Position numbers and translations under genes: made by a program. Under the pieces are notes generated by a model. The model was not told the DNA's origin and ran no database searches. It saw only the letters and a list, made by a program, of their open reading frames with translations. This document shows positions 11,022 through 34,303 of a stretch of 37,687 nt of DNA, piece by piece. How positions within the stretch are numbered: the first letter of the stretch is position 1; every line of letters starts with the position of its first letter. Origin of the DNA: an uncultured Prevotella sp. Lineage in GTDB: Bacteria > Bacteroidota > Bacteroidia > Bacteroidales > Bacteroidaceae. The stretch is from positions 1 through 37,687 of the forward strand of contig CALUFA010000022.1 of NCBI GenBank assembly GCA_944319795.1, written 5' to 3'.

Positions 11022-11124
11022 AAAAAGTTGCCTTACATGTTGTGAAAGGCAACTTTTTGCTGTATAAAAGGTAACCTTTTGCAACGCAAAAGGCCGTCTC
11101 TTGCAATACAAAAGACGGCCTTTT
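11022..11124. repeat. 22-bp-period dyad array A, five units
   Basis: Units start at 11022, about 11044, 11066, 11088 and 11110: AAAAAGTTGCCTT, AAAGGCAACTTTTT, AAAAGGTAACCTTTT, AAAAGGCCGTCTCTT and AAAAGACGGCCTTTT. Spacers include GCTGTAT, GCAACGC and GCAATAC (7 bp each). Units 1 and 2 are inverse complements, as are units 4 and 5, so each pair can also fold as a hairpin. It lies between convergent genes and probably also terminates transcription. Confidence 0.8.
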
Positions 11125-11173
11125 ACAATGTATTGGTTATCAGTATGTTACGGATGTGGTTTTGACCGGTTGT

Positions 11174-12157
11174 TCAACGTATCAGGTTCTTGGAGTATAA
11201 TTGCCCTTGGTATGCGCCGGTCTGCCGCATGTGGTTGGCAAGAAGGTTGGCGAACTCATGGTTCTTCAGCCCCCAGCGTGGCGCGACGAGCATGTCGCCG
11301 GGCGACTGTGAGGTGAAGCGGTCGAGCACTATTGTTGGCCGTAAGCGGCGTATGTATTCGGTCAGCATGGTAGCGTATTCTTCGGGGGTGTACAGCTTGA
11401 ACGGGTGTTCGGCGTATTCGGCGGCAAGGCGTGTGCCTTTGATGATTTGCAGTTGGTGGATTTTCAGGATGTCGAGCTTCGTTTCGGATATTATTTCCGC
11501 CTGGCGCAGATTGTCGCTTTCGTCTTCTCCGGGTAGGCCGACGATGACGTGGCCGCCCGTCGTGATACCCCGGCCGGCAGTCTCTTCAATCGCGCGCCGC
11601 GAGCATTCGAACGTGTGGCCGCGGTTGATGCGTGCCAAGGTGGCGTCGTTTACGCTCTCGATGCCGTATTCAACGATGACGAACGCCTGTCGGGCCAACG
11701 CCTCGAGGTAGTCGAGCGTCTTGCCGTCTACGCAGTCGGGGCGCGTGCCGATTACCAATCCTACCACGTTGTCGACCGATAACGCCTCTTCGTATCTCCT
11801 CTTTAACGTGTCGAGCGGAGCATAAGTATTTGTATATGCTTGGAAATAAGCGAGATAGCGCATGTCGGGATACTTCCTTGCGAAAAAGCGCTTGCCGGCA
11901 TCAAGTTGTCCGGTTATCGACTTGCGGCTGTCGCAGTAGGCAGGGTTGAACGTGTTGTTGTCGCAAAACGAGCATCCGCCGAAACTTATGCGGCCGTCGC
12001 GGTTGGGGCACGAGAAGCCTGCGTTTACTGAAATCTTTTGCACCTTGTAAGGGAAACGGCTGTTCAACCATGTGCCGAAGTCGTTGTATGGCAATTGTTT
12101 TTTTGCAAATATGTTTGCGCCGCCGCCGTTTGCGCCGCCGTTTTGTATGCCCGTCAT
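11174..12157 (-). CDS. Radical SAM protein, TIGR01212/YhcC family
   Basis: The 327-residue protein carries an iron-sulfur motif of the YhcC type in its N-terminal region: SCPNRDGRISFGGCSFCDN, with cysteines spaced for a [4Fe-4S] cluster that cleaves S-adenosylmethionine. It is followed by YFQAYTNTYAPLDTLKRRYE, IGTRPDCVDG, EYGIESVNDATLARINRGH and GGHVIVGLPGEDE, all characteristic of the family. The natural substrate is not established. The start at ATG 12157 (MTGIQNGGANGG) is chosen because the upstream extension of 59 residues looks non-coding and covers the divergent promoter. It is divergent from the DPP IV gene with an 82-bp gap. Confidence 0.88.
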   Translation of the reverse strand: MTGIQNGGANGGGANIFAKKQLPYNDFGTWLNSRFPYKVQKISVNAGFSCPNRDGRISFGGCSFCDNNTFNPAYCDSRKSITGQLDAGKRFFARKYPDMRYLAYFQAYTNTYAPLDTLKRRYEEALSVDNVVGLVIGTRPDCVDGKTLDYLEALARQAFVIVEYGIESVNDATLARINRGHTFECSRRAIEETAGRGITTGGHVIVGLPGEDESDNLRQAEIISETKLDILKIHQLQIIKGTRLAAEYAEHPFKLYTPEEYATMLTEYIRRLRPTIVLDRFTSQSPGDMLVAPRWGLKNHEFANLLANHMRQTGAYQGQLYSKNLIR

Positions 12158-12205
12158 ATTAATATCTTTTAAATCTAATGTGATGCAAATGTAATGAAAA
12201 TTAAT

Positions 12206-12213
12206 TATCTTTG
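12206..12213 (+). promoter_or_regulatory. -7 element for the DPP IV gene
   Basis: TATCTTTG fits TAnnTTTG and ends 26 bp before the ATG at 12240. The -33 box is degenerate. Confidence 0.55.
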
Positions 12214-12239
12214 CCCGGAAATAAACATTAAAAAGAACG

Positions 12240-14444
12240 ATGAGGAAATTTTTTGTTATGTGTGCGGCGCTGCTCCTTGCCGTAAGTATGGGCAAGGCCG
12301 GCGAAACGCTCTCTCTTAAAGACATAGCCGGCAATAAGTTTGCCGCCGAACGTCTTAGTGCCGTAACGCCTTTGGCAGACGGCGAAAGTTACGCAATGAT
12401 AAGCAAGGACGGCAAGCAGGTTGTAAGGTATTCTTACAAGACCGGTAAGCAGACGGGCGTGCTTTTCGACGCAGACAATACGGTCGGCGAGAAAGTTGAC
12501 AAACTTGACAATTTCATAATGAGTCCGGACGGCAAGAGGATGCTGATACAGACTGGTACGAAGCCTGTTTACCGCCGCTCGTTTACCGCCACATATTATA
12601 TTTACGACATAGCCGACAGGCAAATGGAACGCCTGTCAGACAACGGCCCGCAGCAGTCGCCCGTATGGTCGCCCGACGGCCTGAAGGTGGCTTTCGTCAG
12701 GGATAACAACATATATTTGATAAAACTTCTTTACGGAAATTCAGAGAGCCAGGTGACCAAGGACGGTAAGCGCAACGAGATTATAAACGGCGTGCCCGAC
12801 TGGGTGTACGAGGAGGAGTTCGCGTTCAACAGCGCGCTGACGTTCAACGCTGACGGTTCGATGCTCTGCTGGATAAGGTTCGACGAAAGCAAAGTGTCCT
12901 CGTTCTCGTTGCAGAGATACAAGGGACTTGAGCCTGAGAATAAGGAATATGCCGAGTATCCGGGGCTTTACACGTATAAATACCCTAAGGCAGGGGCGCA
13001 AAATTCGACAGTGTCGGTAATGAGTTTCGACATACAGGCGCGCCAGACGCGCACAATGCAGCTGCCTCTCGACGCCGACGGCTATATACCGAGGATAAAG
13101 GCGACGAAAGACCCGGCTAAGATCATCGTTTACACGATGAACCGCCATCAGGACAAGCTACGCCTGTATTCGGCCAACCCGCGCAGCACGGTGTGCAAGC
13201 TGCTGATCGACGAAAGCGTGCCTAAATACGTTAAGCTCGAAGCAATGGACGGGATCATGGTAACAGACAACCACATACTCGTGCCAAGCGACCGCAGCGG
13301 ATACATGCAGCTTTACCTTTACAGCCAGACCGGACAGCTGCAACGCAGGCTGACCAACGGCGATTACGACGTAACAGCCGTTTACGGCTACGACGAACGC
13401 ACGGGCAGCGTGTATTACCAGGCCGCCGGTAAGAACGCTATGAACCGCGAGGTGTATGTTACGGGCAGGAACGGCAAGACCGAATGCCTGGCCGGACGCG
13501 AAGGCTGGAACGGCGCCGTGTTCAGCGACGGATGCAAGTATTTCGTGAACGTGTGGAGCGATACGAACACTCCTTACGAATATTCGATTTACACCAACGC
13601 AGGAAAGAAGGTGGCTTCGCTTATAAACAATGATGCGTTGAAGCAGAAACTTGCGGCTTACAATCTGCCCAAGAAGGAGTTTTTCACCTTTAAGACATCA
13701 GAGGGCGTTCAACTCAACGGCGTCATGATCAAGCCTGCCGGTTTTGATGCGAACAAGAAATATCCGGTCATAATGTGGCAGTACAGCGGTCCCGGTAGCC
13801 AGCAGGTGGTCAATTCATGGAACATCGGCTCGATGGGGCAGGGCGCCATGCTCGACGAATATATGGCTCAGCAGGGCTTCGTGGTTGTTTGCGTCGACGG
13901 GCGGGGCACTGGCGGACGCGGCTCTGAGTTTGAGAAGTGTACATATTTGAAACTTGGCGACCTCGAGTCGAAAGACCAGGTGGAAGCCGCCATGTATCTT
14001 GGTTCGCTGCCATACGTTGATAAAAACAACATCGGAATATGGGGTTGGAGTTACGGCGGCTTTAACACGCTGATGAGCATGAGCGAAGGACGGGGCGTAT
14101 TCAAGGCCGGCGTAGCCGTAGCTCCGCCTACGGACTGGCGTTATTACGACTCAGTTTACACCGAAAGGTATATGCGCACGCCAAAAGAGAATCCGTCGGG
14201 ATATGACGTGAACCCGATAAAGCGTGCCGCCGACCTTCACGGGGCGTTGCTTATTTGCCACGGCTTGGCCGACGACAACGTGCATCCGCAAAACACGTTT
14301 GAATACACCGAGGCACTCGTACAGGCAGACAAGGACTTTAAGATGAACGTTTACACGAACCGCAATCACAGCATTTACGGAGGTAATACTCGGAATCATA
14401 TTTACAGGCAGATAATACAATTCTTCACGGAAAACCTGAAATGA
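12240..14444 (+). CDS. Secreted dipeptidyl peptidase IV-type serine peptidase (S9)
   Basis: The 734-residue protein has a signal peptide (to about residue 20), an N-terminal beta-propeller (DPP IV N domain, about 40-450) containing SPVWSPDGLKVAFVRDNNIY and GVPDWVYEEEF, the conserved Glu-rich site that holds the peptide amino terminus. The C-terminal alpha/beta-hydrolase domain has the catalytic triad Ser604 (GIWGWSYGGF), Asp678 (HGLADDNVHPQNT) and His710 (NRNHSIYGG). It should cleave dipeptides, usually after proline, from peptide N-termini in the periplasm, feeding amino-acid uptake. It is divergent from a radical SAM gene. A second, distinct member of the family is encoded at 22538. Confidence 0.92.
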   Translation: MRKFFVMCAALLLAVSMGKAGETLSLKDIAGNKFAAERLSAVTPLADGESYAMISKDGKQVVRYSYKTGKQTGVLFDADNTVGEKVDKLDNFIMSPDGKRMLIQTGTKPVYRRSFTATYYIYDIADRQMERLSDNGPQQSPVWSPDGLKVAFVRDNNIYLIKLLYGNSESQVTKDGKRNEIINGVPDWVYEEEFAFNSALTFNADGSMLCWIRFDESKVSSFSLQRYKGLEPENKEYAEYPGLYTYKYPKAGAQNSTVSVMSFDIQARQTRTMQLPLDADGYIPRIKATKDPAKIIVYTMNRHQDKLRLYSANPRSTVCKLLIDESVPKYVKLEAMDGIMVTDNHILVPSDRSGYMQLYLYSQTGQLQRRLTNGDYDVTAVYGYDERTGSVYYQAAGKNAMNREVYVTGRNGKTECLAGREGWNGAVFSDGCKYFVNVWSDTNTPYEYSIYTNAGKKVASLINNDALKQKLAAYNLPKKEFFTFKTSEGVQLNGVMIKPAGFDANKKYPVIMWQYSGPGSQQVVNSWNIGSMGQGAMLDEYMAQQGFVVVCVDGRGTGGRGSEFEKCTYLKLGDLESKDQVEAAMYLGSLPYVDKNNIGIWGWSYGGFNTLMSMSEGRGVFKAGVAVAPPTDWRYYDSVYTERYMRTPKENPSGYDVNPIKRAADLHGALLICHGLADDNVHPQNTFEYTEALVQADKDFKMNVYTNRNHSIYGGNTRNHIYRQIIQFFTENLK

Positions 14445-14523
14445 GTTGGCCGTTCAGTGCCTGACTGCGGCACTACCGTATCATCCAAATGTCTTTAAAA
14501 TATATTTTAACATATAAACAGAT

Positions 14524-15747
14524 ATGAACAAATCAAAAATCTTTTACGCTTTGGCGTTCGGCTTGATGCTTGCGCCATTCTCGGCAAATGCCGCAGACGT
14601 AACGGTCACGGTATCGAACAACGACAAAGTGCAGCGTCAGGAACTTGTAGAAGTTCCTGTCAAAGACGTTTACGCAAAGCTCGGAATCAAGGACGGCGAC
14701 AAGTTCATCGTAAGGAACGCTTTGGGGCAACAAGTCGCTTACCAAGTGACGTATGACGGAAAACTGCTTATCGATGCGAGCGTGCGCCCCGGAGGAACGG
14801 CGGATTTCACAATTACCCCCGGTGAACCGAAACCAATGAAAACCTATGTATGCGGCAAGCAATACCCTGAACGTGTAGACGACATCGCATGGGAGAACGA
14901 CCGCACTGCTTACCGTGTTTACGGGCCGGCTCTTCAGCGTACCGGTGAGAAAGCGTTTGGAGTGGATGTTTGGGTAAAGAACACTCCAGACCTTGAGGTC
15001 GAAAAACGTTATACGACCGAGTTGTCTAACCATCATAAGATAGCGGAACTTAAGAAAGCAGGCAAGACTGCCGAGGCTCTTGAGATGGAACAGGAAACGA
15101 CTTACCACTTCGACCACGGCTATGGCCTGGATTGTTACAAGGTGGGGCCAACACTCGGCTGCGGTACTCCGGCTTTGATGGACGGCGACGAGATGGTAAT
15201 GCCTTATTGCTACAAAACTTATAAGATTCTCGACAACGGGCCGTTGCGCTTCACTGTACAGTTGGATTACAACCAATTCAATATCGGTGAGGACAAGAAC
15301 GTTGTGGAACATCGAATCATTAGTTGCGATAAGGGAAGCAACTTCAACAAAATGACCGTATGGTTTGAAGGTCTGACTAAGCCGCGTGACATGGTTGCCG
15401 GAGTTGTTATCCATAGCGAGGACACCAAGAGCGTGGTTTGCGGAGACAATTATGTAATTTATGCCGATCCGACGGACAACCCTGCGAAGCAAAATTTCCA
15501 GATTTATGTAGGCGTGCTGTTCCCAAACGGTGTGAAGTCGACAAAGACCATGATGTATGACACTCCGTCTAACGGCAACGCCGGACACGGTGTCGGAGTG
15601 ATAACATACCAGCCGAATGAGAAATACACTTATTATTTCGGTTCGGCGTGGAGCAAGAACGATGTGCGCACCATGAACGAATGGAAACTGCGTTCTGAAG
15701 AAACGCTCAATGCATTGCAAGTTCCCCTGAAAGTCACTGTAAAGTGA
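14524..15747 (+). CDS. Secreted DUF4861 protein
   Basis: The 407-residue protein has a clear signal peptide (MNKSKIFYALAFGLMLAPFS...ANA) and a beta-rich body matching DUF4861: RQELVEVPVKDVYAKLGI, DDIAWENDRTAYRVYGPALQ, YHFDHGYGLDCYKVGPTLG, MPYCYKTYKILDNGPLRFTV and YYFGSAWSKNDV. In Bacteroidetes, DUF4861 proteins are often found in gene clusters for pectic or other uronic polysaccharides, so a link with the pectinesterase at 3947 is possible. They are 8 kb apart, however, and no activity is shown here. It follows the DPP IV gene by 79 bp, with a weak hairpin (AGTGCC/GGCACT, 14456-14474) between them. Localisation is probably periplasmic or surface. Confidence 0.8.
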   Translation: MNKSKIFYALAFGLMLAPFSANAADVTVTVSNNDKVQRQELVEVPVKDVYAKLGIKDGDKFIVRNALGQQVAYQVTYDGKLLIDASVRPGGTADFTITPGEPKPMKTYVCGKQYPERVDDIAWENDRTAYRVYGPALQRTGEKAFGVDVWVKNTPDLEVEKRYTTELSNHHKIAELKKAGKTAEALEMEQETTYHFDHGYGLDCYKVGPTLGCGTPALMDGDEMVMPYCYKTYKILDNGPLRFTVQLDYNQFNIGEDKNVVEHRIISCDKGSNFNKMTVWFEGLTKPRDMVAGVVIHSEDTKSVVCGDNYVIYADPTDNPAKQNFQIYVGVLFPNGVKSTKTMMYDTPSNGNAGHGVGVITYQPNEKYTYYFGSAWSKNDVRTMNEWKLRSEETLNALQVPLKVTVK

Positions 15748-15761
15748 TGATCAGCAATATT

Positions 15762-15805
15762 TTGGTTTGCCTGGGGCACGAGTAAGCCGCTCTCGGGCAA
15801 ACCAA
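15762..15805 (+). terminator. Hairpin between DUF4861 gene and iorA
   Basis: TTGGTTTGCC (15762-15771) pairs with GGCAAACCAA (15796-15805), a perfect 10-bp stem with a 24-nt loop, 15 bp after the stop codon. No T-run follows, so the terminator assignment is tentative. Confidence 0.4.
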
Positions 15806-15863
15806 CATTCCATAATTCTCTGAAAAACATATAGACAATTAATCGTTATTGTTAAAATCTAAT

Positions 15864-17480
15864 ATGATGAAAAAATTATTATTAGGAGATGAAGCTATTG
15901 CGCAAGCTGCCATCGATGCCGGATTGAGCGGAGTTTATGCTTATCCGGGCACACCGTCGACCGAAATCACGGAGTACATCCAAAACTCACCGGTCGCAAA
16001 AGAGCGTAACATCCACAGAAGGTGGTCGACTAATGAGAAAACGGCAATGGAGGAAGCCCTCGGTATGTCGTTCATGGGCAAGCGTGCATTGGTTTGCATG
16101 AAGCATGTCGGACTTAATGTCTGTGCCGACCCGTTCGTGAATTCAGCAATGACAGGAACCAACGGCGGTATTATCGTGCTTGTGGCCGACGACCCTTCAA
16201 TGCACTCGTCACAGAATGAGCAAGACAGCCGCTTTTATGCCAAATTCGCAATGATTCCATGCTTCGAGCCGTCAAGTCAGCAAGAGGCTTACGACATGGT
16301 TCATTATGCGTTTGATTACAGCGAACGCATCCATCTGCCTGTACTTATGCGTGTTACGACAAGAATGGCGCATAGCCGTGCCGTCGTTGAAATTAATGAA
16401 ACGGCGAGGGAACAGAATAAGATGAACTTTGACGCCAAGGCTGGCGAGTGGGTTTTGTTGCCGGCAATGGCGCGCAGACGTAACGACATCGTAACCGCAC
16501 AGCAAGCCGAGCTTGAGGCAGATGCCGTTGAAAGCTGCTTCAACCGTTATGAAGACGGCAATGATCATTCGCTTGGAATAATCACGGGCGGCATAGGCAT
16601 CAACTATTTGAACGAGTGTTATCCGGACGGTTGTCCTTATCCGGTCTTGAAAATCAGCCATTACCCGTTGCCGAAAGCATTGATGCGGAAGCTCACGGAA
16701 GAGTGTGACAACGTTCTCGTAATCGAGGAAGGCCAACCTTTCATCGAGGATATTCTCAACGGAGTGATGCCCGGCAACGCCGTAATCAAGGGTAAACTCA
16801 CAGGCGACCTGCCTCGCACAGGTGAACTTACGCCTGATATTGTCAAGAAGGCGCTTAATATTTCTTTGGGCGAATGTTACGCTCCGAGCGAGAATATAGT
16901 TCCACGTCCGCCTGCGCTTTGTCAAGGTTGCGGCCACAGGGACGTATATGCAGCCTTGAACGACGTATTGAAGGATTATCCAGACGCAAGGGTTTTCGGC
17001 GACATAGGGTGCTACACTCTTGGTGCCTTGCCGCCTTACAGGGCTTTGCATTCAACCGTCGACATGGGCGCGAGCATTACGATGGCCAAAGGTGCGGCCG
17101 ATGCAGGGCTTTGGCCCGCCGTTGCCGTAATCGGCGATTCTACGTTCACGCATTCTGGTATGACCGGATTGCTCGACGCAATCAACGAGAACGCAGACAT
17201 AACCGTCATAATCAGCGACAACCTGACGACGGCCATGACCGGCGGACAAGACTCTGCCGGAACAAACAAACTTGAGGCAATATGCCGTGGATTAGGATTG
17301 GACGGGGAACATTTGAAGACGGTCGTCCCGTTGCCTAAGAACATGCCTGAGATTGAAAAACTATTGCGTGACGAGATAAACTACCACGGAGTCAGCGTGA
17401 TAATCCCATGCCGCGAGTGCATGCAGACGTTGCAAAGACACCTTAGACAAAAGAAACAGAAAGGAGAGCAAGCAAAATGA
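15864..17480 (+). CDS. iorA: Indolepyruvate:ferredoxin oxidoreductase, alpha subunit
   Basis: The 538-residue protein is the thiamine-diphosphate subunit that oxidatively decarboxylates aryl-2-oxoacids (from Trp, Phe, Tyr) to aryl-acetyl-CoA, or runs the reaction in reverse with reduced ferredoxin. The N-terminal part (LLLGDEAIAQAAIDAGLSG, YPGTPSTEI) and the ThDP-binding part (PPALCQGCGHRDVYAALNDV, GDIGCYTLGALPP, GDSTFTHSGMTGLLDA) are intact. The C-terminal two-cluster ferredoxin domain found in archaeal IorA is absent; the protein ends in a Lys-rich tail. Start is at ATG 15864 because the longer frame starts at TTG 15849. It overlaps iorB by 4 bp (ATGA), which indicates translational coupling. 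Confidence 0.92.
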   Translation: MMKKLLLGDEAIAQAAIDAGLSGVYAYPGTPSTEITEYIQNSPVAKERNIHRRWSTNEKTAMEEALGMSFMGKRALVCMKHVGLNVCADPFVNSAMTGTNGGIIVLVADDPSMHSSQNEQDSRFYAKFAMIPCFEPSSQQEAYDMVHYAFDYSERIHLPVLMRVTTRMAHSRAVVEINETAREQNKMNFDAKAGEWVLLPAMARRRNDIVTAQQAELEADAVESCFNRYEDGNDHSLGIITGGIGINYLNECYPDGCPYPVLKISHYPLPKALMRKLTEECDNVLVIEEGQPFIEDILNGVMPGNAVIKGKLTGDLPRTGELTPDIVKKALNISLGECYAPSENIVPRPPALCQGCGHRDVYAALNDVLKDYPDARVFGDIGCYTLGALPPYRALHSTVDMGASITMAKGAADAGLWPAVAVIGDSTFTHSGMTGLLDAINENADITVIISDNLTTAMTGGQDSAGTNKLEAICRGLGLDGEHLKTVVPLPKNMPEIEKLLRDEINYHGVSVIIPCRECMQTLQRHLRQKKQKGEQAK

Positions 17481-18052: not shown

Positions 18053-18066
18053 GCATATAAACGAAA

Positions 18067-18096
18067 TGCGGCGTGCCGTGAAAACGGCACACCGCA
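18067..18096 (+). terminator. Hairpin between iorB and the aminotransferase gene
   Basis: TGCGGCGTGCCGT (18067-18079) pairs with ACGGCACACCGCA (18084-18096) with one mismatch and a 4-nt loop. It is not followed by T residues, so it may stabilise the upstream message or partly attenuate readthrough rather than stop it. Confidence 0.4.
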
Positions 18097-18120
18097 ATCA
18101 TTAAAAACACAGAATCAACC

Positions 18121-19434: not shown

Positions 19435-19456
19435 TTCGGCTTGTAGTTATTCATAG

Positions 19457-19497
19457 AAAAAGACGTGTTCCGCAAAGTGGTGCGGAGCACGTCTTTT
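19457..19497 (+). terminator. Intrinsic terminator of the ior/aminotransferase unit
   Basis: AAAAAGACGTGTTCCGCA (19457-19474) pairs with TGCGGAGCACGTCTTTT (19481-19497) around a 6-nt loop with one mismatch or bulge. The stem ends in a T-run, and it lies 22 bp after the stop codon. Confidence 0.8.
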
Positions 19498-19598
19498 CCA
19501 TTTGTCAAACGTCGTGAAGGCTATGTTGGCGTAGTGTCTTTGTCACGATTTGTTGTTCTATTTGAACGTACTTTCCATACAGAACTTTAGTTGTTTGC

Positions 19599-19679
19599 AA
19601 AAGGTTGCCTTTTGAACCGTAAAAGGTAGCCTTTCATGCGCTAATAGGCTGCCTTTTGCAGGGCGGAAGGATGCCTTTT
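19599..19679. repeat. 22-bp-period dyad array B, four units
   Basis: Units start at 19599, 19621, 19643 and 19665, exactly 22 bp apart: AAAAGGTTGCCTTTT, AAAAGGTAGCCTTTC, AATAGGCTGCCTTTT and GGAAGGATGCCTTTT. Spacers are GAACCGT, ATGCGCT and GCAGGGC. It lies between convergent genes but 100 bp beyond a full terminator, so termination is not its only possible role. Confidence 0.85.
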
Positions 19680-21092: not shown

Positions 21093-21107
21093 TTTTATTC
21101 AATTCAT

Positions 21108-21205
21108 AATTCATAATTCATAATGCATAATTCACGGCCGGATGCCGTGCTTGTTGATTGTTTGGCGCAGCCTGATTGTGAATTATGCATTATGAATTAT
21201 GAATT
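21108..21205. repeat. 28-bp AT-rich inverted repeat of CATAATT units
   Basis: A perfect 28-bp inverted repeat (21108-21135 and 21178-21205), made of tandem heptamer-like ATTCATA units, encloses a GC-rich 42-nt loop that contains its own CGGCCGGATGCCG dyad. The right arm ends 1 bp from the purD stop codon. It may act as a leftward terminator or message-stabilising hairpin. Confidence 0.7.
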
Positions 21206-26413: not shown

Positions 26414-26479
26414 TTTTTTCCGTCTTTATTTTTGATTGCCTCCGGCATTCATGCGTCGGTCAGTTTTCTACCGTAGCGC

Positions 26480-26560
26480 GGCAGCATGCCTTCCGCCGTG
26501 TAAAAGGTTGCCTTTTATACTGCGGAAGGCCGTCTTTCGGGGTGTAAAAGGCCACATATT
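26480..26560. repeat. 22-bp-period dyad array C, four units, between divergent promoters
   Basis: Units start at 26480, 26502, 26524 and 26546, exactly 22 bp apart: GGCAGCATGCCTTCC, AAAAGGTTGCCTTTT, GGAAGGCCGTCTTTC and AAAAGGCCACATATT. Spacers are GCCGTGT, ATACTGC and GGGGTGT. The array sits upstream of both the leftward promoter at 26382-26413 and the rightward one at 26691-26721. Confidence 0.8.
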
Positions 26561-26690
26561 GCACGATGAAACGCGGCGTGATATTAACAGGCTGGTAATC
26601 AGTGAATTATAAAATACTGGGGTTCCGTGTGCGGAAGCGTGTATTATCTTCGCCTTAAATGTAAAGTTTTCTTAAATACATGAAGGCATA

Positions 26691-26721
26691 TTGGCATTCT
26701 CACGCAAAAGCGATATATTTG
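26691..26721 (+). promoter_or_regulatory. Promoter for the DsbD/TauE-like membrane-protein gene
   Basis: TTGG (26691-26694), 19 bp, then TATATTTG (26714-26721), a consensus -7 box, 23 bp before the ATG at 26745. Confidence 0.65.
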
Positions 26722-26744
26722 CATTCATTATTTTTTAAGGTAAG

Positions 26745-27443
26745 ATGGATTTTGTTCAGAGTATAATAGACTATAACGGTTTTCCAGTCCTTACGGCTTT
26801 CCTGCTCGGCCTGATCGTGGCCTTGCACCCTTGTCCGCTTGCCGCCAACGTGGCGGCGATGGGCTATTTGGCCCGTGACGTGAACGACCGCCGCCGCGTG
26901 TTCCTTAACGGTTTGGCTTATACCGCCGGGCGCATATTGGCTTATTCGCTGCTCGGCGTAGTGTTGGTGGGCGTGTTCCGCGGCAGCGGCGGCATCGAGG
27001 CCGTCGGCCGTTGGTTCGGCGAGTGGGGCGAAAAGTTGTTGTCACCGGTTCTGATGATAGTGGGCCTGTATTTCATTCTCGACCGTTTCCTCCACAAGCA
27101 CGAGCATTGCCCCGACGTGCCTGTGCGCGGCCGCAAGCTCCGCGGAGCGTGGGGCAGCCTGCTTTTGGGCGTGCTCCTTGCGTTGTCTTTCTGTCCGGAG
27201 AGCGCCATCGTGTATTTCGGCATGCTCATGCCCTTGTCCGCCGGTTCCGCTTGGGGCTGTTTCCTGCCTGTCGTGTTTTCGATAGCCACGTCGGTTCCGG
27301 CCGTAATCATGGCTTGGGCCGTTGCTTACGGGGTCGGCGGAACGCAGGCGGTAAAAAATAAGATGCACGCCGTACAGCGGTGGGTCAACACCGCCGTAGG
27401 CGTGCTGTTCATAGGAGCCGGAGCGTTCTGTCTGTTTAATTAA
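26745..27443 (+). CDS. DsbD/CcdA-like or TauE/SafE-like redox membrane protein
   Basis: The 232-residue protein has about six membrane helices. Conserved Cys-Pro pairs occur in helix 1 (VALHPCPLAANVAAMGYL) and helix 4 (LALSFCPESAIVYFGMLM), the arrangement that lets DsbD/CcdA proteins carry electrons across the inner membrane by disulfide exchange. Bacteroidetes members are often annotated 'sulfite exporter TauE/SafE'. A His-rich loop (DRFLHKHEHCPDVPV) near residue 115 adds a third cysteine and could bind metal. No thioredoxin-like partner lies next to it. It has its own promoter and converges on the DUF4230 pair through a 32-bp inverted repeat. Confidence 0.85.
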   Translation: MDFVQSIIDYNGFPVLTAFLLGLIVALHPCPLAANVAAMGYLARDVNDRRRVFLNGLAYTAGRILAYSLLGVVLVGVFRGSGGIEAVGRWFGEWGEKLLSPVLMIVGLYFILDRFLHKHEHCPDVPVRGRKLRGAWGSLLLGVLLALSFCPESAIVYFGMLMPLSAGSAWGCFLPVVFSIATSVPAVIMAWAVAYGVGGTQAVKNKMHAVQRWVNTAVGVLFIGAGAFCLFN

Positions 27444-27517
27444 GAATTAAGAGTTAAGAATTAAGAAAACATGTCTCGCTGGTAATTTTCTTAATTCTTA
27501 ACTCTTAATTCTTAATT
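27438..27517. terminator. 32-bp perfect AT-rich inverted repeat of TTAAGAA units
   Basis: Arms at 27438-27469 and 27486-27517 are perfect reverse complements over 32 bp. Each is a tandem of 7-bp units (TTAAGAA/TTAAGAG). The loop is 16 nt. The left arm includes the stop codon of the membrane-protein gene, and the repeat lies between two convergent genes, so it probably terminates both. Confidence 0.75.
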
Positions 27518-27526
27518 CAAAAAGAT

Positions 27527-28835: not shown

Positions 28836-28850
28836 ATTCTCCGTTATTTT

Positions 28851-28980
28851 AGAATTTAAAGAATTTAGGGAAATTATCACTCAGCTAACGCTTCGTTAGA
28901 AGTTAAGGCCAAATGCCTTGCCTGTGTGTACAAGACTATCGGCTTTAATTTCTCTAACTTCTTTACCTTCTTTAAATTCT
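28851..28980. repeat. AT-rich inverted repeat of 9-bp units with unequal arms
   Basis: The left arm (28851-28876) and right arm (28946-28980) are reverse complements except that the right arm has one extra 9-bp unit (CTTCTTTAC) and two substitutions. The loop holds CTAACG-CTT-CGTTAG and AAGGC-CAAAT-GCCTT hairpins. The same AACTTCTTT/AACTTCTCT units recur at 36.3 kb. It lies between divergent genes, so it is not a simple terminator. Confidence 0.65.
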
Positions 28981-29103
28981 TTATTCCATATTCAGTTACA
29001 AAGTTAGTAAAAAAACGCCGACTCCGCTTCATTTTCGAGGCGGTTTTTCGGCACAACTTTCATCTTTAAACGTTTTTTGCTTCGCTCACTCAGAAAATTG
29101 CAT

Positions 29104-29111
29104 TACCTTTG
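29104..29111 (+). promoter_or_regulatory. -7 element for the small lipoprotein gene
   Basis: TACCTTTG fits TAnnTTTG, 24 bp before the ATG at 29136. A TTTG at 29076-29079 is 24 bp upstream, slightly far for a -33 box. Confidence 0.5.
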
Positions 29112-29135
29112 CGCCGTAATAAACCGAAAGCAGAC

Positions 29136-29681
29136 ATGAAGTTGATACGCACGTTGATCGCCGCCTCGGCCGCGGCGCTCGTTTTCGCCGCCTGCGGCGA
29201 GAAAAAGCAGAGCAAGGTCATTATAACCAAGAAACCCGAAGCCAAGGCCCCGGTGGCGCCGGTAAGGATGCAGGACTACGACCACCGCGACGCCGTAGAC
29301 TGGCTCGGCCGCCAATACTCCGTGGCCGTAAGCCGCAAGGCCGACACGTCGTTGCCGATAGTGGCCGACGACGCCGGCGGCAAGTATTACGACAACAGGA
29401 TAAGCGTAAGCGTTACACGGCCGGACGGCACGCTGTTCTTCGACCGCACCTTCACCAAGGCCGACTTCACGCAGCAAGTAGGCGCAAGCTACCTTGAAAA
29501 GAGCGCCCTTTTAGGCATCGTCGTCGACGGCGCCGAGGGCGACAACCTCGTACTGGCGGCCAGCGTAGGCGCCCCCGACGTGCTCAGCGACGACTACGTG
29601 CCCTTGCTGATCACCATTTCGCGCATGGGCGGCGTAAGCATCGAGAAAGACACAAGGCTCGACGGGGAAATTGAAGAATAA
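29136..29681 (+). CDS. Small lipoprotein of unknown function (DUF4738-like)
   Basis: The 181-residue protein begins MKLIRTLIAASAAALVFAAC, a lipoprotein signal with lipobox FAAC. The mature part has a Lys/Pro/Ala linker (IITKKPEAKAPVAPVR) and a compact domain with YDHRDAVDWLGRQYSVAVSR, VTRPDGTLFFDRTFTKADF and PLLITISRMGGVSIEKDTR. This resembles DUF4738 proteins of Bacteroidales, which have no known function. The start is moved from 29109 to ATG 29136 because the shorter form has a proper lipoprotein signal. It has its own -7 box and converges on an AraC-type regulator. Confidence 0.78.
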   Translation: MKLIRTLIAASAAALVFAACGEKKQSKVIITKKPEAKAPVAPVRMQDYDHRDAVDWLGRQYSVAVSRKADTSLPIVADDAGGKYYDNRISVSVTRPDGTLFFDRTFTKADFTQQVGASYLEKSALLGIVVDGAEGDNLVLAASVGAPDVLSDDYVPLLITISRMGGVSIEKDTRLDGEIEE

Positions 29682-29690
29682 GGAAGTGAA

Positions 29691-29792
29691 AAGTGAAGAG
29701 TGAAGAACGAAGAGTGAAGAATCTATTACATTGCTATTTGGATGACAATAAAGCAATTGGATTCTTCACTCTTCGTTCTTCGCCCTTCACTT
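29691..29792. terminator. 33-bp inverted repeat of GTGAAGA units between convergent genes
   Basis: Arms at 29691-29723 and 29760-29792 are reverse complements over 33 bp with about two mismatches. Each is a tandem of 7-bp GTGAAGA/GCGAAGA-like units. The loop contains ATTGCT...AGCAAT. The right arm touches the AraC-family stop codon. Confidence 0.7.
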
Positions 29793-30693
29793 ATTTCATC
29801 CTGTATTCCTGCGGCGTCAGGCCGGTCAGGTGCTTGAAATACTTGCAGAAGAAACTGACGTTGGGGAAGTCCATTGCGTATGCAATCTCGGCCACTTGCA
29901 TGCCCGTGTACCTCAGCATCACCTTCGCCCGGGTTACGGCGGCGCGGTCAATCCACTCCTTGGCGGTTATCCCGCTTGCCGATTTGACGGCCGTGCCGAG
30001 GTAGCGCGGCGTTACGCACATCTTGTCGGCATAAAACCCCAACTTGCGTTCGCGCCCGCCGTGAGTGTTTACAAGGCGTATGAACGAGTTGAAAAGCTCC
30101 TTGCCGCGCGACGTTCCGGGCCCGGCCGTATCCGATTCAGCGTTTTTCAGGTAACCGTAATAATGTATTATGGCGCGGATCAGGCCGTTGAGTGTCTCGT
30201 CGGGGAAACGCTCCATGCCCAGCAGATGCCACACAGAGGCGAACAGCCGCTTGACGGCCGCCGCGTCTTCCTCATGCGGATGCACGGTGAAAAACGGCGC
30301 GTAGCCGTTATACCATACGGGCGGCAAGCCGCCTAAGGCGGCGTTGAGCCGCTCGTTGCCCATCATCATGCCGCACAGGTCGAAGTCTTCCGACATATAG
30401 TTGATTTGCAGTATGCTGCCGGCATATATGAAGGCGAACGTGCCTTCGCCGTATTCGCGCTCAATGAGGTTTACCGTCAGCCTTATCCGCCCTTTCCTTA
30501 TGAAGCCCATGCGGCAGTCTTCCATTATGTAGGGCGTGTCGGGTTGCAGTATGTTTTGCAACGCCTTGTGCCCTTCTCCGAGCATGGCCAGCTCCTTACC
30601 GATGAACCTTACAGGCGCATGCCCGGCCTTCATGCCGCCCACCATGCTTCTCAGTTCGCCGAACGAGAAGCGTTCCGGCGATTTGTTTTTCAT
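29791..30693 (-). CDS. AraC-family transcriptional regulator
   Basis: The 300-residue protein has an N-terminal cupin-like effector part (about 30-180) and a C-terminal AraC DNA-binding domain with two helix-turn-helix motifs: KLGFYADKMCVTPRYLGTAV, then ...AKVMLRYTGMQVAEIAYAMD and FPNVSFFCKYFKHLTGLTPQEYR, the family signature. It is divergent from the efflux operon beginning at 30883 and is the obvious candidate regulator of it. The ligand is unknown. A minus-strand promoter lies 27 bp upstream of its start. Confidence 0.9.
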   Translation of the reverse strand: MKNKSPERFSFGELRSMVGGMKAGHAPVRFIGKELAMLGEGHKALQNILQPDTPYIMEDCRMGFIRKGRIRLTVNLIEREYGEGTFAFIYAGSILQINYMSEDFDLCGMMMGNERLNAALGGLPPVWYNGYAPFFTVHPHEEDAAAVKRLFASVWHLLGMERFPDETLNGLIRAIIHYYGYLKNAESDTAGPGTSRGKELFNSFIRLVNTHGGRERKLGFYADKMCVTPRYLGTAVKSASGITAKEWIDRAAVTRAKVMLRYTGMQVAEIAYAMDFPNVSFFCKYFKHLTGLTPQEYRMK

Positions 30694-30719
30694 CTTCTTT
30701 TTGTATGATTTTTATTGTG

Positions 30720-30750
30720 CAAAAATACAAAAATATCACTTATAGACAAT
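30720..30750 (-). promoter_or_regulatory. Promoter for the AraC-family gene
   Basis: On the minus strand ATTG (30750-30747), 19 bp, then TATTTTTG (30727-30720). A loose dyad ACAATGTTTT...AAAACAGCGTTGT (30746-30774) overlaps it and could be an operator. Confidence 0.5.
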
Positions 30751-30845
30751 GTTTTATGTCGAAAACAGCGTTGTGCGGAGCCAACACGGTACAAAAAGAA
30801 CATTTAATGGTTGTATAAGATAACATTGCGGACGTATTGTAGCAT

Positions 30846-30853
30846 TATCTTTG
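30846..30853 (+). promoter_or_regulatory. -7 element for the efflux operon
   Basis: TATCTTTG fits TAnnTTTG, 30 bp before the ATG at 30883. The -33 box is degenerate, as expected for an activator-dependent promoter. Confidence 0.55.
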
Positions 30854-30882
30854 CAAGCGGAAACAATAATAATCAGATTTAT

Positions 30883-32136
30883 ATGAAGCACTATTTAGTT
30901 TGCATGCTTATACTCTTTTGCGTTGGGACAAGTCGTGCGCAACTAACTTTGGAGCAGTGCAAGGCGTGGGCGAGAGACAATTATCCCGTCATACGGCAGT
31001 ACGACTTAGTGCGGCAGAGCCGCCGGCTCACCGTGGAAAACGCCGCTAAAGCGTGGCTGCCGCAAGTCAGCTTGAGCGGCACGGCGGGCTACCAGAGCGA
31101 CGTTACGACCATTCCCGCCAGCATTCCGGGCGTTGACATCCCGGCTATCGGCAAGGACCAGTATGACGTAAACCTGACGGTGAGCCAGCAGGTGTACGAC
31201 GGCGGAGCCGCAGCCTCGGCCAAGCGGACGGCCGAGGCGCAGGGCGACGTTGGGCTTGAACAAGTCAGCGTTGCCATGTATGACGTTGGCCGGCGCGTCG
31301 ACCAGATGTTTTTCGGCGTGCTCGTGCTCGACGAAAAGATAGCGCAAGTGCGCATATTAAAAGACGACTTGCGGTTGACGCTGGCCTCGGTTGAGGCTAT
31401 GGTTAAGGGCGGGGTGGCCAATCAGGCCGACGTAGACGCCGTAATGGTGGAACAGGTGAAGGCACACCAGAGGGAAACGAGTATGCTAACGCAGCGCGCC
31501 ATTTACCTGAAAATGCTCTCAACATTCACAGGCAAGGACATAAGCGAGGGCGACTCGCTTGTTAAACCGGCACCCCCAGTCGTGCGAAACGGCGCAAACA
31601 GCCGGCCGGAACTGGCTCTTTACGCTGCGCAAGACCGCTTGCTCGACACCCGGCTGAAGTCTCTCGATGTGGGGTTGCGTCCCCGTGTCGGCCTGTTTGC
31701 GCGCGGCGGATACGGCAATCCGGGGCTGAACATGCTGAAAGACGACTTTGACGCTTATTATAAAGTAGGCGTTACGCTGTCGTGGAACTTCGGTTCGCTG
31801 TACACCCGGGCCAACGACCGTCGCAAGATAGAGGCCGAGCGGCTGACCGTGCAGTCGGAGCGTGACGCGTTTCTGTTCGACACACGCCTGCAAACAGAGC
31901 TTAAAAGCGGAGCGGTCGGCAGTCTGAGAAAGCAGATTGAGCAAGACGACGAGATAATAAAGTTGCGTAAGCGCATACGCGAAAAGGCCGAGCTGCGCGT
32001 TGCCAACGGCACGGAGACCGTGAACGAGATGCTCCGCGACATCAACGCAGTAAGCGACGCGCAGCTCGTCAAACGGCTGCATGAAATCCAGCTCTTGCAA
32101 GAAATGTATGAAATCAAACACTTGAACAACTTTTAG
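30883..32136 (+). CDS. TolC-family outer-membrane efflux protein
   Basis: The 417-residue protein has a signal peptide (MKHYLVCMLILFCVGTSRAQ) and two TolC-like repeats of long alpha-helices: LTLEQCKAWARDNYPVIRQYDL, WLPQVSLSGTAGYQ, LTVSQQVYDGGAAASAKRTAEAQ, then NSRPELALYAAQDRL, KVGVTLSWNFGSLYTR and ELRVANGTETVNEMLRDINA. It should form the outer-membrane tunnel of a tripartite pump. Start ATG 30883 gives a proper signal peptide; the longer frame from 30811 runs through the promoter. First gene of a six-gene operon, followed by the adaptor after 91 bp. Confidence 0.9.
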   Translation: MKHYLVCMLILFCVGTSRAQLTLEQCKAWARDNYPVIRQYDLVRQSRRLTVENAAKAWLPQVSLSGTAGYQSDVTTIPASIPGVDIPAIGKDQYDVNLTVSQQVYDGGAAASAKRTAEAQGDVGLEQVSVAMYDVGRRVDQMFFGVLVLDEKIAQVRILKDDLRLTLASVEAMVKGGVANQADVDAVMVEQVKAHQRETSMLTQRAIYLKMLSTFTGKDISEGDSLVKPAPPVVRNGANSRPELALYAAQDRLLDTRLKSLDVGLRPRVGLFARGGYGNPGLNMLKDDFDAYYKVGVTLSWNFGSLYTRANDRRKIEAERLTVQSERDAFLFDTRLQTELKSGAVGSLRKQIEQDDEIIKLRKRIREKAELRVANGTETVNEMLRDINAVSDAQLVKRLHEIQLLQEMYEIKHLNNF

Positions 32137-32227
32137 GGCTATCGTGTATTGAGATTGTAAGGTTGTGCGGCCGCAAAGGTTGTACGGTAAATATATCTAA
32201 GGAAATGAACATTTAAACTGTAAGGAT

Positions 32228-33118
32228 ATGAAGAACATGATATTTGCATTGGCGGTTTTGTCATTGGTGGCGTGTAACAAAGGCGGCATGGAGCACGACG
32301 CGATGGGAACATTTGAGGCCACCGAAGTTATAGTGTCGGCCGAGCAGGCGGGCAGGCTGATGTATTTCAACATAGAAGAAGGCGCAAATGTCGACAGCGG
32401 CCAGCATGTGGCACTCATCGACACTGTGCAACTGCAACTGCAGGCGCTGCAGCTCGGGGCGACGAAAGAGGCTTATGCTGTCAGCCGTCCCGACATGGCA
32501 AAGCAGATAGCGGTGACGAAACAGCAGCTGGCCAAGGCCGAGCACGAACGTAAAAGGTATGAAGCCCTTGTACGCGGCAATGCCGCCAACCGCAAGCTGC
32601 TTGACGACGCAGAGAACGAAGTGCGCATGTTACGCCGCCAGTTGGATGCCCAGGTGTCACAATTAAGCAATACTACGGGTAGCCTGAACCGCCAGATGGA
32701 TGCTGCGGAGATACAGCGCCGCCAGGTAATAGACCGCTTGGAGAAGTGCCGCGTCAAGTCGCCGATAAGTGGAACCGTGCTCGAAAAGTATGCCGAAGCC
32801 GGGGAATACGCCACGCCGGGCAAGCCGCTGTTCAAGGTTGCCGACATAACCGATATGGTGTTGAGGGCGTATGTAACGGCACCTCAGTTGACTTCGCTTA
32901 AGATAGGGCAACAGGTGAAGGTTTATGCAGACTCGGGCGATGACTCAATGCGCGAGTATGAGGGCGTGGTGTCATGGATTTCAGACAAGGCAGAGTTTAC
33001 TCCAAAGACCATACAGACGCGCGACGAGCGCGCCAACCTTGTCTATGCGGTTAAGATAAGGGTAAGGAATACTGACGGGCTGATTAAGATAGGGATGTAC
33101 GGCGAGGCTGACTTTTAA
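32228..33118 (+). CDS. HlyD/YbhG-type periplasmic adaptor lipoprotein
   Basis: The 296-residue protein begins MKNMIFALAVLSLVACNKG, a lipoprotein signal with lipobox LVAC. It has two halves of a biotinyl-lipoyl-like domain (ATEVIVSAEQAGRLMYFNIE...GQHVALID and VKSPISGTVLEKYAEAGEYA), separated by a long alpha-helical hairpin (about 70-165, rich in Lys/Gln/Arg), then a beta-barrel (PLFKVADITDMVLRAYVTAP, IGQQVKVYAD). It should bridge the inner-membrane ABC transporter and the TolC-like tunnel. A T-rich, repeat-bearing gap of 122 bp separates it from the first ATPase gene. Confidence 0.9.
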   Translation: MKNMIFALAVLSLVACNKGGMEHDAMGTFEATEVIVSAEQAGRLMYFNIEEGANVDSGQHVALIDTVQLQLQALQLGATKEAYAVSRPDMAKQIAVTKQQLAKAEHERKRYEALVRGNAANRKLLDDAENEVRMLRRQLDAQVSQLSNTTGSLNRQMDAAEIQRRQVIDRLEKCRVKSPISGTVLEKYAEAGEYATPGKPLFKVADITDMVLRAYVTAPQLTSLKIGQQVKVYADSGDDSMREYEGVVSWISDKAEFTPKTIQTRDERANLVYAVKIRVRNTDGLIKIGMYGEADF

Positions 33119-33240
33119 GTGAAGAACGATGAGTGAAGAGCGAAGAATCCCAATGCATAGCGGCTTTACTTTTTTACCTTTTTACTTTTTTACCTTTCCG
33201 TCCCACCTTCTAACTTTTTCACCTTCTCACTTTTAATATT

Positions 33241-34176
33241 ATGATTTCAGTTTCAGATTTACGAAAGAAATACGGCAAGACTGAGGCCCTCGCCGGCCTG
33301 ACCTTCAACGTAAACGAGGGCGAGATATACGGTATGATAGGCCCTGACGGGGCCGGCAAGACCACGCTTTTCCACATATTGGCGAGCCTGATGCTGCCCG
33401 ACGGCGGGCGGGCTGAGGTAGACGGGCTCGACGTGGTTGGCGATTACCGCGAACTGCGCCGACGCATAGGCTACATGCCCGGTAGGTTTTCACTCTACCA
33501 AGACCTTTCGGTTGAAGAAAACCTGAGGTTTTTCGCATCGGTGTTCGGCACCACCGTCGAGCGGAATTACGACCTCGTAAAGCCGATATACTCTCAGTTG
33601 GAGCCGTTCAGGAAGCGTAGGGCTGGCAAGCTGTCGGGTGGAATGAAGCAGAAGCTGGCCCTTTCGTGTGCGCTGATACACGCCCCGAGGGTGCTGTTGC
33701 TCGACGAACCGACAACAGGCGTAGACCCCGTGTCGCGCAAGGAGTTTTGGCAGATGCTGCTGAAGTTGAGGGATGCCCACGGCATTACGGTTCTCGTGTC
33801 GACGCCTTACATGGACGAAGCCTCGTGGTGCGACCGCATCTCCCTCATAGAAAACGGCCGGCTGCTCCAGACCGATACGCCCGACGGTATATGCCGGGCT
33901 TATTCCGGCAGTTTGTATGCAGTGAGATGTGACGACATGCGCCGCCTGATGGACGCTCTTAAGGATTGCGTCGAAGTGGAATCGGCGTTCTCTTTCGGCG
34001 ACAGCTTCCACGTAACGTTGAGGCATGGGGCCTCGGCGGATACATTGCGCTGCGGTTTGGCTGCAGGCGGATTCGGGCGGGTGGATATACATGGGATAAG
34101 CCCATCGGTAGAAGATTGCTTCATGTCGCTTATGGGAAACCAAGCAACGGCAGCGCGCAGGAATGCGGATATTTGA
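33241..34176 (+). CDS. ABC transporter ATPase 1 (YbhF N-half-like)
   Basis: The 311-residue protein has a full nucleotide-binding domain: Walker A GPDGAGKTT, Q-loop region IGYMPGRFSLYQDLSVEEN, signature LSGGMKQKLALS, Walker B RVLLLDEPTTGVDP and a switch region in which the usual His is not obvious (VLVSTPYMDEA). A C-terminal extension of about 90 residues follows. It corresponds to the first ATPase half of the E. coli fused YbhF. The next gene encodes the other half. The 192-bp gap between the two ATPase genes holds dyad array D. Confidence 0.92.
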   Translation: MISVSDLRKKYGKTEALAGLTFNVNEGEIYGMIGPDGAGKTTLFHILASLMLPDGGRAEVDGLDVVGDYRELRRRIGYMPGRFSLYQDLSVEENLRFFASVFGTTVERNYDLVKPIYSQLEPFRKRRAGKLSGGMKQKLALSCALIHAPRVLLLDEPTTGVDPVSRKEFWQMLLKLRDAHGITVLVSTPYMDEASWCDRISLIENGRLLQTDTPDGICRAYSGSLYAVRCDDMRRLMDALKDCVEVESAFSFGDSFHVTLRHGASADTLRCGLAAGGFGRVDIHGISPSVEDCFMSLMGNQATAARRNADI

Positions 34177-34222
34177 TACGGACGTAATTTGTTGATGTTC
34201 AGCTGCTTGCCGATTGTGTCGC

Positions 34223-34303
34223 AAAACGAGGCTTACGGCCTTGCAAAAGGTAGCCTTTGAGGCTGTAAAAGGTAACCTTTCAGCGTGTGAAAGGATGCTT
34301 TTC
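34223..34303. repeat. 22-bp-period dyad array D, inside the efflux operon
   Basis: Units start at 34223, 34245, 34267 and 34289, exactly 22 bp apart: AAAACGAGGCTTACG, AAAAGGTAGCCTTTG, AAAAGGTAACCTTTC and GAAAGGATGCTTTTC. Spacers are GCCTTGC, AGGCTGT and AGCGTGT. It lies between two co-oriented genes of one operon. Confidence 0.85.

Follow-up and report, generated by a model that had tools for sequence, protein, structure and literature searches.

A 22-bp lattice of paired inverted units as a candidate nucleoid-architecture element in Prevotella

What kind of element places short arrays between genes, with the same period each time and a different sequence in each? The question was raised by an earlier note on a 37,687-nt stretch of Prevotella DNA (the window), which pointed to five intergenic loci with a strict 22-bp period. 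All five loci were found to exist, the one at 2676-2734 being weak (profile score of 28 vs 60-75 for the other arrays of the window). The period was also confirmed, with 16 matches to AAAAGGNNNCCTTTT at no more than 2 mismatches against a mean of 1.97 and a maximum of 6 in 100 shuffles, and with eight unit pairs exactly 22 bp apart against none in 100 block shuffles. The features of the window are as follows:

2654..2734, no strand: array A, weak; four lattice slots, units 2698 and 2720 with 2 mismatches each
11022..11124, no strand: array B; five units between convergent gene ends
11138..11150, plus strand: match to the IHF consensus (WATCARNNNNTTR) 13 bp beyond array B
19599..19679, no strand: array C; four units between convergent gene ends
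26502..26560, no strand: array D; three units by profile, between divergent genes, with degenerate slots at 26480 and 26568
26597..26609, plus strand: match to the IHF consensus (WATCARNNNNTTR) 36 bp beyond array D
34185..34197, minus strand: IHF-like site (one mismatch) noted by eye, 25 bp beyond array E; absent from the exact consensus matches
34223..34303, no strand: array E; four units, flanked by two co-directional ABC transporter genes

In array B, two inverted pairs (11022-11058 and 11088-11124, each with 14 of 15 bases complementary) surround a middle unit at 11066-11080, and the IHF-consensus match beside them sits within TTGGTTATCAG-N3-GTTAC. The place matching array C also holds an array in L075-L079, with weak scores in L076 and L078; a separate terminator-like hairpin, read by eye, lies at 19456-19500 between the upstream gene and this array. 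The place matching array D has an array in L077 and L079, and probably in L076 and L089 too. Array positions can persist between species while their sequences turn over. No Rfam family matched at the arrays of the window.

The scan was extended to 838 kb of the genome (G000), where 284 unit matches were obtained. Their pairwise spacings fell at 22 bp (140 pairs), 44 bp (74) and 66 bp (28), and no other spacing was represented by more than 2 pairs. Genome-wide, the two-unit pattern gave 575 and 590 matches at up to 3 mismatches, vs 41 and 53 with the reversed pattern. The many intergenic arrays that the note had predicted were recovered by a trained profile, which detected 100 in G000, 75 of them with exactly four units; the profiles were trained on the same arrays that they counted, and sequence read backwards as the null yielded 2, 1 and 1 arrays. 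The element consists of 15-bp units on a strict 22-bp period, mostly in intergenic DNA, with A/T tracts that alternate with an 11-bp period. In a scan of further double-hairpin geometries (stem 13, loops 3-19, gaps 0-19), none stood out but those on the 22-bp lattice. The four-unit arrays of G000 have on average little common sequence outside the array. Selection on architecture, not recent copying, had been suggested from the window, and this view was upheld, since the cores differ and direct identity between the units of an array is at chance level.

The symmetry of the arrays proved to be placed otherwise than the note had it. The conserved symmetry joins neighbouring units 1-2 and 3-4, not the halves of one unit. 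For these pairs, 151 double-changed cells were counted vs 69 after shuffling, a level reached in 0 of 500 shuffles, in an alignment of 58 arrays (52 of the 75 four-unit arrays of G000 and six from relatives); this selection was made by hand, followed no written rule and left out the other 23 four-unit arrays. The test was repeated on all 75 four-unit arrays, giving z = 4.7 and 6.8 for pairs 1-2 and 3-4 and -0.4 for 2-3. Units 2-3 showed no covariation (34 cells vs 35.5 shuffled), and neither did the dyad within a unit (23 vs 24.6), so that compensatory change was borne out between units but not inside them. Covariation in the spacers did not go beyond the shuffles, and spacer 2 was less palindromic than every one of 500 shuffles. 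A second dyad, TTTTGC-NNN-GCAAAA, which the note had seen interleaved with the first, occurred six times in the window vs 3.3 by chance, a count reached in 10 of 100 shuffles, and was not retained. The four-unit arrays of G000 are thus two side-by-side inverted repeats in which changes in the variable cores compensate each other; perfectly complementary 15-base arms were found in 9 of 50 cases for pair 1-2 and 4 of 50 for pair 3-4. In G010 this pairing signal was weak; the five-unit arrays of G012 had none, or a negative one.

On one flank, many arrays carry a motif of the IHF consensus, TTGATWATCAA-N3-GTTAC, which lies 13/14, 25 or 36 bp from the array and hence in helical (11-bp) phase. The motif WATCARNNNNTTR, here a putative binding site, is the IHF consensus as printed in PMC9519438. 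Within 60 bp outside the arrays, the consensus was found at 20 of the 100 G000 arrays (20 sites vs 0.8 expected from whole-genome density, distant flank windows having at most 0.4% matches) and at 10 of 53, 14 of 43, 7 of 46 and 12 of 31 arrays in four other genomes. The control motifs in five genomes gave 0, 0, 0, 2 and 0 sites when reversed and 2, 0, 0, 2 and 2 when permuted. An IHF-like site above the profile threshold accompanied 41 of 98, 25 of 52, 24 of 42, 10 of 46 and 2 of 31 arrays in five genomes; as only part of the arrays have it, the site is not universal or has diverged. A looser dyad was present in 32 of 200 array flanks vs 41 of 1395 intergenic windows. The motif was never two-sided (0 of 195 arrays vs 10.8 expected), and its orientation relative to neighbouring genes was unbiased (13 vs 11). 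Four matches to the HU/IHF family (PF00216) were obtained in this genome.

The arrays are over-dispersed along the chromosome, typically 6-20 kb apart depending on the species. The 88 inter-array gaps of G000 had a minimum of 3,034 bp and a CV of 0.43 vs 0.83 under random intergenic placement, and in G012 the CV was 0.50 vs 0.91. In the relative G010 the minimum gap was 10.1 kb vs at most 5.2 kb simulated; its CV of 0.80 was not below the null (P 0.24), the effect of a single 120-kb gap without which it was 0.40. The CVs of 0.45 in G077 and 0.43 in G089 stand without a null. The minimum is not absolute, as 5 of 44 gaps in G077 and 2 of 33 in G089 were below 3 kb, and single gaps of 789 bp and 1,582 bp were seen in G012 and P. 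nigrescens. With gene calls from simple custom callers (77-89% coding), 93 arrays were placed: 20 in convergent gaps (of 43), 49 in tandem (of 227) and 24 in divergent ones (of 76), the frequency per convergent gap being about twice that per tandem gap. An adjacent gene end was present for 69 of the 93, and the median distance from the array was 88 bp to the adjacent stop codon vs 280 bp to the start codon. The excess in convergent gaps also fits a role at transcript ends.

Clear array sets were found only within the genus and patchily there, in 63 of 150 genomes; the other 87 had no array match, so the element is not essential to the genus. Order-wide presence was rejected, as 8 of 197 other genomes gave one or two weak matches each. 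Conserved adjacent gene pairs with gaps of at least 100 bp had no array in either genome in 31 of 31 cases for G000-G010 and 9 of 9 for G000-G012; for G010-G012 this held for 5 of 6 conserved pairs, the sixth having an array in G012 only. Because conserved gene pairs hold practically no arrays, positional orthology at large distance is uninformative.

The note knew of no named element of this form. However, PINSR, a named 188-bp intergenic repeat of the P. intermedia/nigrescens group (Naito et al., PMC4755523), very likely includes an array of this kind. In the available part of that account, PINSR is judged non-coding, has 177 and 184 copies in two strains with about three quarters of positions common to strains, is absent from most CTn/MTn, and was found by PCR in one clade only; the same part mentions no lattice, pairing, IHF-type site or spacing. 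An element of G107 agrees with that of P. nigrescens, a stated PINSR carrier, at 83% over 193 bp, contains four units of the 22-bp lattice and is 188-190 bp long by nhmmer in 6 of 7 copies (100 kb); the ends of the G107 and P. nigrescens element are TGTAAAGATAATTC and GAAAAATATTTACA. The P. nigrescens array very probably lies within PINSR, the consensus of which is published as a figure. The arrays of the window have the architecture and the flank motif in common with this element but not the end sequences, and PINSR-type ends were not enriched beside G000 arrays (13 matches less than 75 bp away, 15 farther). A PINSR-like avoidance of conjugative elements was seen in one case, a 120-kb stretch with a TraG gene and no array, in G010 and not in the window genome, 10 of its 93 ORFs being typed.

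Other known systems were also compared. E. coli BIME-1/RIB (REP pairs with an IHF site) are likewise intergenic inverted-repeat modules, their IHF site recalling the putative one here; they are described as numbering hundreds per genome, and a BIME impedes supercoil diffusion according to PMC6907758. They differ from the present element in its 22-bp lattice, mostly four units, variable compensating cores and over-dispersed spacing, and their IHF site lies between the palindromes, whereas the IHF-type motif here lies outside the array, in phase. RAYT/REP mobility was rejected, as the genome has no match to the RAYT (Y1) transposase (PF01797), for which 5 of 14 control genomes were positive. Phased A-tract clusters and 11-bp AT periodicity, with a proposed packaging role (PMC4132750), are similar in that their A/T tracts keep helical phase for about 80 bp; the present element is instead a discrete one that has inverted pairs, a flank site and a preferred number of units. 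The BrickBuilt MITE of Porphyromonas gingivalis, also of the Bacteroidales, is built of short tandem units that, at 23 bp, are similar in length, and has 19 copies in ATCC 33277 and ends resembling IS5-family elements (PMC4596501); identity with it was rejected, its unit AGAYCATARTATCCTCTCRTRTG being unrelated and its period different.

We give an even chance to the reading of the array as the core of a composite nucleoid-architecture element that marks or pins supercoil domains, with protein binding and function both putative. The flank would be bent by an HU/IHF-family protein, and phased tracts together with inverted repeats would produce a curved module prone to form hairpins or cruciforms; the complete element would fix the position of a supercoil loop or loop boundary, so that selection would maintain an element at intervals of several kilobases. 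According to PMC9519438, plectonemes are pinned by IHF, and bridges divide topological domains; DNA curvature also pins plectonemes (PMC6301789). Such an element would work like E. coli BIME/RIB but be unrelated to them. Against it stand the 87 of 150 genomes of the genus without a match, the pairing signal with its weakness in G010 and its absence or negative sign in G012, the flank site present at only part of the arrays, the gaps below 3 kb, the CV of G010 and the excess in convergent gaps. Of the earlier interpretation, the period, the many arrays and the architecture were kept; the symmetry had to be moved between neighbouring units, and the one-sided flank motif, unit number and kilobase spacing had been missed.

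The nearness of stop codons and the over-represented convergent gaps (20 of 43) would also be expected of bidirectional intrinsic terminators, the inverted pairs being hairpins with A-rich and T-rich ends downstream of genes, and the RNA folding energy of -32.6 kcal/mol vs -27.9 when units were reshuffled among arrays points the same way. We nevertheless consider terminators unlikely: 24 of the 93 placed arrays lie between divergent genes, no minimum spacing is predicted, and array C already has its separate terminator-like hairpin toward the upstream gene. Moreover, in 44 gene-oriented tandem arrays the core mismatches were about equally G-U (63) and A-C (67), giving no sign of selection on sense RNA, which was rejected. 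The same lack of G-U bias, together with the missing Rfam match and the unoriented flank site, makes a structured non-coding RNA, or hairpin RNAs acting on the nucleoid, highly improbable, despite the two-hairpin covariation and the E. coli precedent of REP325/naRNA4 (PMC6907758).

An unlikely alternative is a miniature mobile repeat of MITE- or REP-like type, without host function and propagated by a transposase that shows target immunity. The high copy number and the G107/P. nigrescens element of about 190 bp, with ends that are inverse-similar by eye, speak for it, and target immunity could give rise to a minimum spacing. Yet the genome has no Y1/RAYT transposase, the arrays within it are far from identical while positions are common to species, none was detected in the G010 stretch with conjugative-element genes, and a decayed mobile element does not readily account for compensatory pairing or for a phased flank site on one side only; PINSR itself is stated by Naito et al. 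(PMC4755523) to lack terminal inverted repeats. The pairing could also result from mutation instead of selection, through template switching in hairpins that makes adjacent units complementary. Template switching is a recognised mutational route for quasi-palindromes, and the perfect 15-base arms agree with it, but units 2-3 should be affected too and were not, and spacing, unit number and flank site are left unexplained; we hold this to be improbable.

Returning to the nucleoid-architecture element, its even spacing and architecture suggest a built-in scaffold for chromosome folding. Tentatively, it may act as a sequence-encoded ruler: a module of conserved architecture but fast-evolving sequence, recurring at intervals of 6-20 kb that differ between species, as does the number of units, would determine how large supercoil loops are. 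The limits of supercoil domains are an old open question, and candidate boundaries have mostly been thought irregular or transient. With a defined element that can be counted and is over-dispersed, in a genus abundant in gut and mouth, this question would become directly testable and, if the proposal is true, loop positions would be predictable from sequence. The unexplained repeat of oral Prevotella would become one member of a genus-wide family, and the ruler, if true, would correspond in bacteria to evenly spaced chromatin anchors, selected for position and shape, not for sequence.

The earlier note had proposed repeats with a strict 22-bp period, and these were found to be real: 16 unit matches were obtained in the window against 1.97 expected, and eight unit pairs lay exactly 22 bp apart (0/100 shuffles). 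The surrounding genome (G000) comprises 2.61 Mb in 77 contigs, the window being contig 22; by purD protein its closest titled relatives, with the genome's own records possibly omitted, were an uncultured Prevotella (98%) and Marseilla massiliensis (94%). A scan of 838 kb of G000, window included, yielded 284 units spaced by 22, 44 or 66 bp, any other spacing occurring at most twice. When a profile trained on the units of this same sample was applied, 100 arrays were detected, against two at the same threshold in the same sequence read backwards. Exactly four units were present in 75 arrays, three in 22 and five in 3.

Each unit had also been taken for a conserved dyad, a view that did not hold up. 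A set of 58 four-unit arrays without gaps was examined, 52 picked by hand among the 75 of G000 and six taken from relatives. No covariation was observed within the unit, with 23 double-changed cells against 24.6 after shuffling. It was the pairing of units 1 with 2 and 3 with 4 that covaried in this set (83.9% paired against 77.2%; 151 against 69 double-changed cells; 0/500 shuffles), and no signal was obtained between units 2 and 3. Across all 75 four-unit G000 arrays the pairing z-scores were 4.7 (1-2), 6.8 (3-4) and -0.4 (2-3), and direct identity between units was at chance level. Perfectly complementary 7-base cores, scored in 50 arrays, occurred 13 times in pair 1-2 and 8 times in pair 3-4, where 1.3 and 0.9 were expected. 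The middle spacer was less palindromic than in all 500 shuffles and looks as though it avoids an alternative 2-3 hairpin. The same two-pair plan was seen with different cores in other species, for example CGCGCCG/CGGCGCG and CGTGCCG/CGGCACG at the related locus L090. Since the pairing signal was weak in the related genome G010, and neighbouring units in the five-unit arrays of another, G012, were if anything less complementary than chance, the two-pair rule is established for four-unit arrays of the G000 type only.

A motif, TTGATWATCAA-N3-GTTAC, recurred beside the arrays and includes the IHF consensus, WATCARNNNNTTR in an excerpt of PMC9519438. Exact WATCAANNNNTTR matches within 60 bp outside the arrays were counted: 20 of the 100 G000 arrays carried one, against 0.8 sites expected, and these made up 20 of the 55 matches in the sample. 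The relatives G077, G089, G010 and G012 gave 10/53, 14/43, 7/46 and 12/31 arrays. Control motifs gave, for G000 and these four in the same order, 0, 0, 0, 2 and 0 flank sites (reversed) and 2, 0, 0, 2 and 2 (permuted). In G000, G077 and G089 the offsets clustered at 13/14, 25 and 36 bp, that is, in 11-bp steps, and the orientation was mostly outward. With a profile trained on 38 sites, the five genomes had the motif scored at 41/98, 25/52, 24/42, 10/46 and 2/31 arrays, in no case on both flanks; in G000, G077 and G089 together, 0/195 arrays were two-sided against 10.8 expected under independent sides. The element therefore has polarity, and its direction was unrelated to that of the neighbouring gene (13 against 11). 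No flank site was noticed at window arrays A (2654..2734) and C (19599..19679).

Features noted in the window
Offset 13 from array B (11022..11124): IHF-consensus site, exact motif match
Offset 36 from array D (26502..26560): IHF-consensus site, exact motif match
Offset 25 from array E (34223..34303): IHF-like site with one mismatch, identified by eye
37610-37687: Bacteroidales small SRP RNA (RF04183), Rfam match, truncated at the window end

As to genomic position, 91 of the 100 G000 arrays lay inside intergenic gaps measuring 120 bp or more, no gap holding two; of the remaining nine, five overlapped called ORFs. The 93 placeable arrays were distributed over convergent (20; 43 gaps), divergent (24; 76 gaps) and tandem (49; 227 gaps) positions, the median distance being 88 bp to a stop and 280 bp to a start. 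The 88 neighbour distances had a median of 8.0 kb and a CV of 0.43, against a CV of 0.83 for random intergenic placement (lowest 0.60 in 3,000 simulations); the shortest was 3,034 bp. Random placement would leave 20.7 distances below 3 kb (lowest simulated 10), where none was observed. Raising the gap requirement to 200, 250 or 300 bp altered this little. The 35 loci of G010 were at least 10.1 kb apart, against a largest simulated minimum of 5.2 kb (2,000 simulations); the CV of 0.80, no lower than the null (P 0.24), is due to a single 120-kb gap containing conjugative-element genes, and falls to 0.40 when that gap is removed. G012 gave a CV of 0.50 against 0.91 (P 0.0005), with one gap of 789 bp. 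For G077 (CV 0.45, minimum 1,255 bp) and G089 (CV 0.43, minimum 2,441 bp) the values stand without a simulated null. Spacing was looser in P. nigrescens (21 nhmmer elements in 200 kb, many partial; one 1,582-bp gap).

The array-free G010 stretch (C3, 452-572 kb; L177-L183) encodes TraG, an N6 methylase and an EF-G-like GTPase resembling ribosomal-protection resistance proteins. Three gene pairs in it share the lengths 529 and 262 aa and resemble IS21 genes, with one gene typed by Pfam. The same contig holds a second, longer array class (for example at 40824, 58587, 583072, 606211, 692931, 715620, 781843 and 798143), in which a conserved AT-only centre (AAAATAATTTATTTT, TTTTTAATTTATTTT, AAAATAAATTAAAAA) lies between two lattice blocks in a single shared 22-bp phase. 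At G000 C9:11956 and C9:15032 a GTCTGCTT minisatellite directly abuts two similar arrays, perhaps a local duplication. In the window, intergenic long inverted or direct repeats at 21101-21205, 27435-27520, 29680-29800, 33165-33234 and 36210-36370 consist of tandem 7-9-bp words, such as AATTAAG x4 facing TTCTTAA x4; several gave microRNA matches under the Rfam gathering score.

The window was compared with eleven related loci. An array occupied the place of C in L075-L079 (with weak scores for L076 and L078) and possibly also in L089 and L090; L080-L083 had none there. For D, both L077 and L079 had one at the matching place, as did probably L076 and L089, and in L078 and L080 an array sat in a different gap instead. 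Arrays at matching places were widely divergent in sequence. Of 36 gaps collinear with G077, three held arrays in both genomes, one in G000 alone, one in G077 alone and 31 in neither; the 24 shared with G089 gave two, one (G000 only) and 21 in neither. A covariance model matched 63 of 150 genus genomes, the window's own included, with at least 31 matches in 12 of the 63, and beyond the genus gave one or two weak matches in each of 8/197 genomes.

In the titles and abstract openings of the open-licence PMC papers retrieved by literature searches, no description of the lattice or its spacing was found. In the genome G107, of the same genus, the lattice is embedded in a repeat of ~190 bp: among 40 scored of 298 candidates, one was the query and 39 matched over 187-213 bp, 24 of these stopping at query position 190-193. 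This repeat was 83% identical to P. nigrescens over 193 bp, and it is very probably PINSR, the consensus of which is published as a figure only. Naito et al. (PMC4755523), who named PINSR, describe it as a 188-bp intergenic repeat without terminal inverted repeats. One P. intermedia strain has 177 copies and a second 184, and P. nigrescens, P. falsenii and P. disiens are further carriers. The window arrays have the lattice and flank motif in common with the G107/P. nigrescens repeat, but not its end sequences. The P. nigrescens record NZ_CP082843.1 (L260-L263; 568 kb, 'plasmid unnamed') carries rpsA, proS, ileS and nuo genes and so appears to be a second chromosome deposited under a plasmid label; near 122 kb it has two similar repeats 1.58 kb apart.

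The lattice, paired units, flank motif, its phase and one-sidedness, the spacing and the positional conservation are established. A role as a sense RNA is less favoured than one at the DNA level, since G-U (63) and A-C (67) mismatches in the cores were about equal. Parallels exist in E. coli, where, in excerpts of the two papers, REP pairs are described with IHF (PMC2817692) and BIMEs as supercoil barriers (PMC6907758). In our model, an HU/IHF-family protein, for which the genome offers four PF00216 matches as candidates, would bend the flank, and the phased tracts with their inverted repeats would form a curved or extrudable module. Module and bent flank together may position or bound a supercoil loop.
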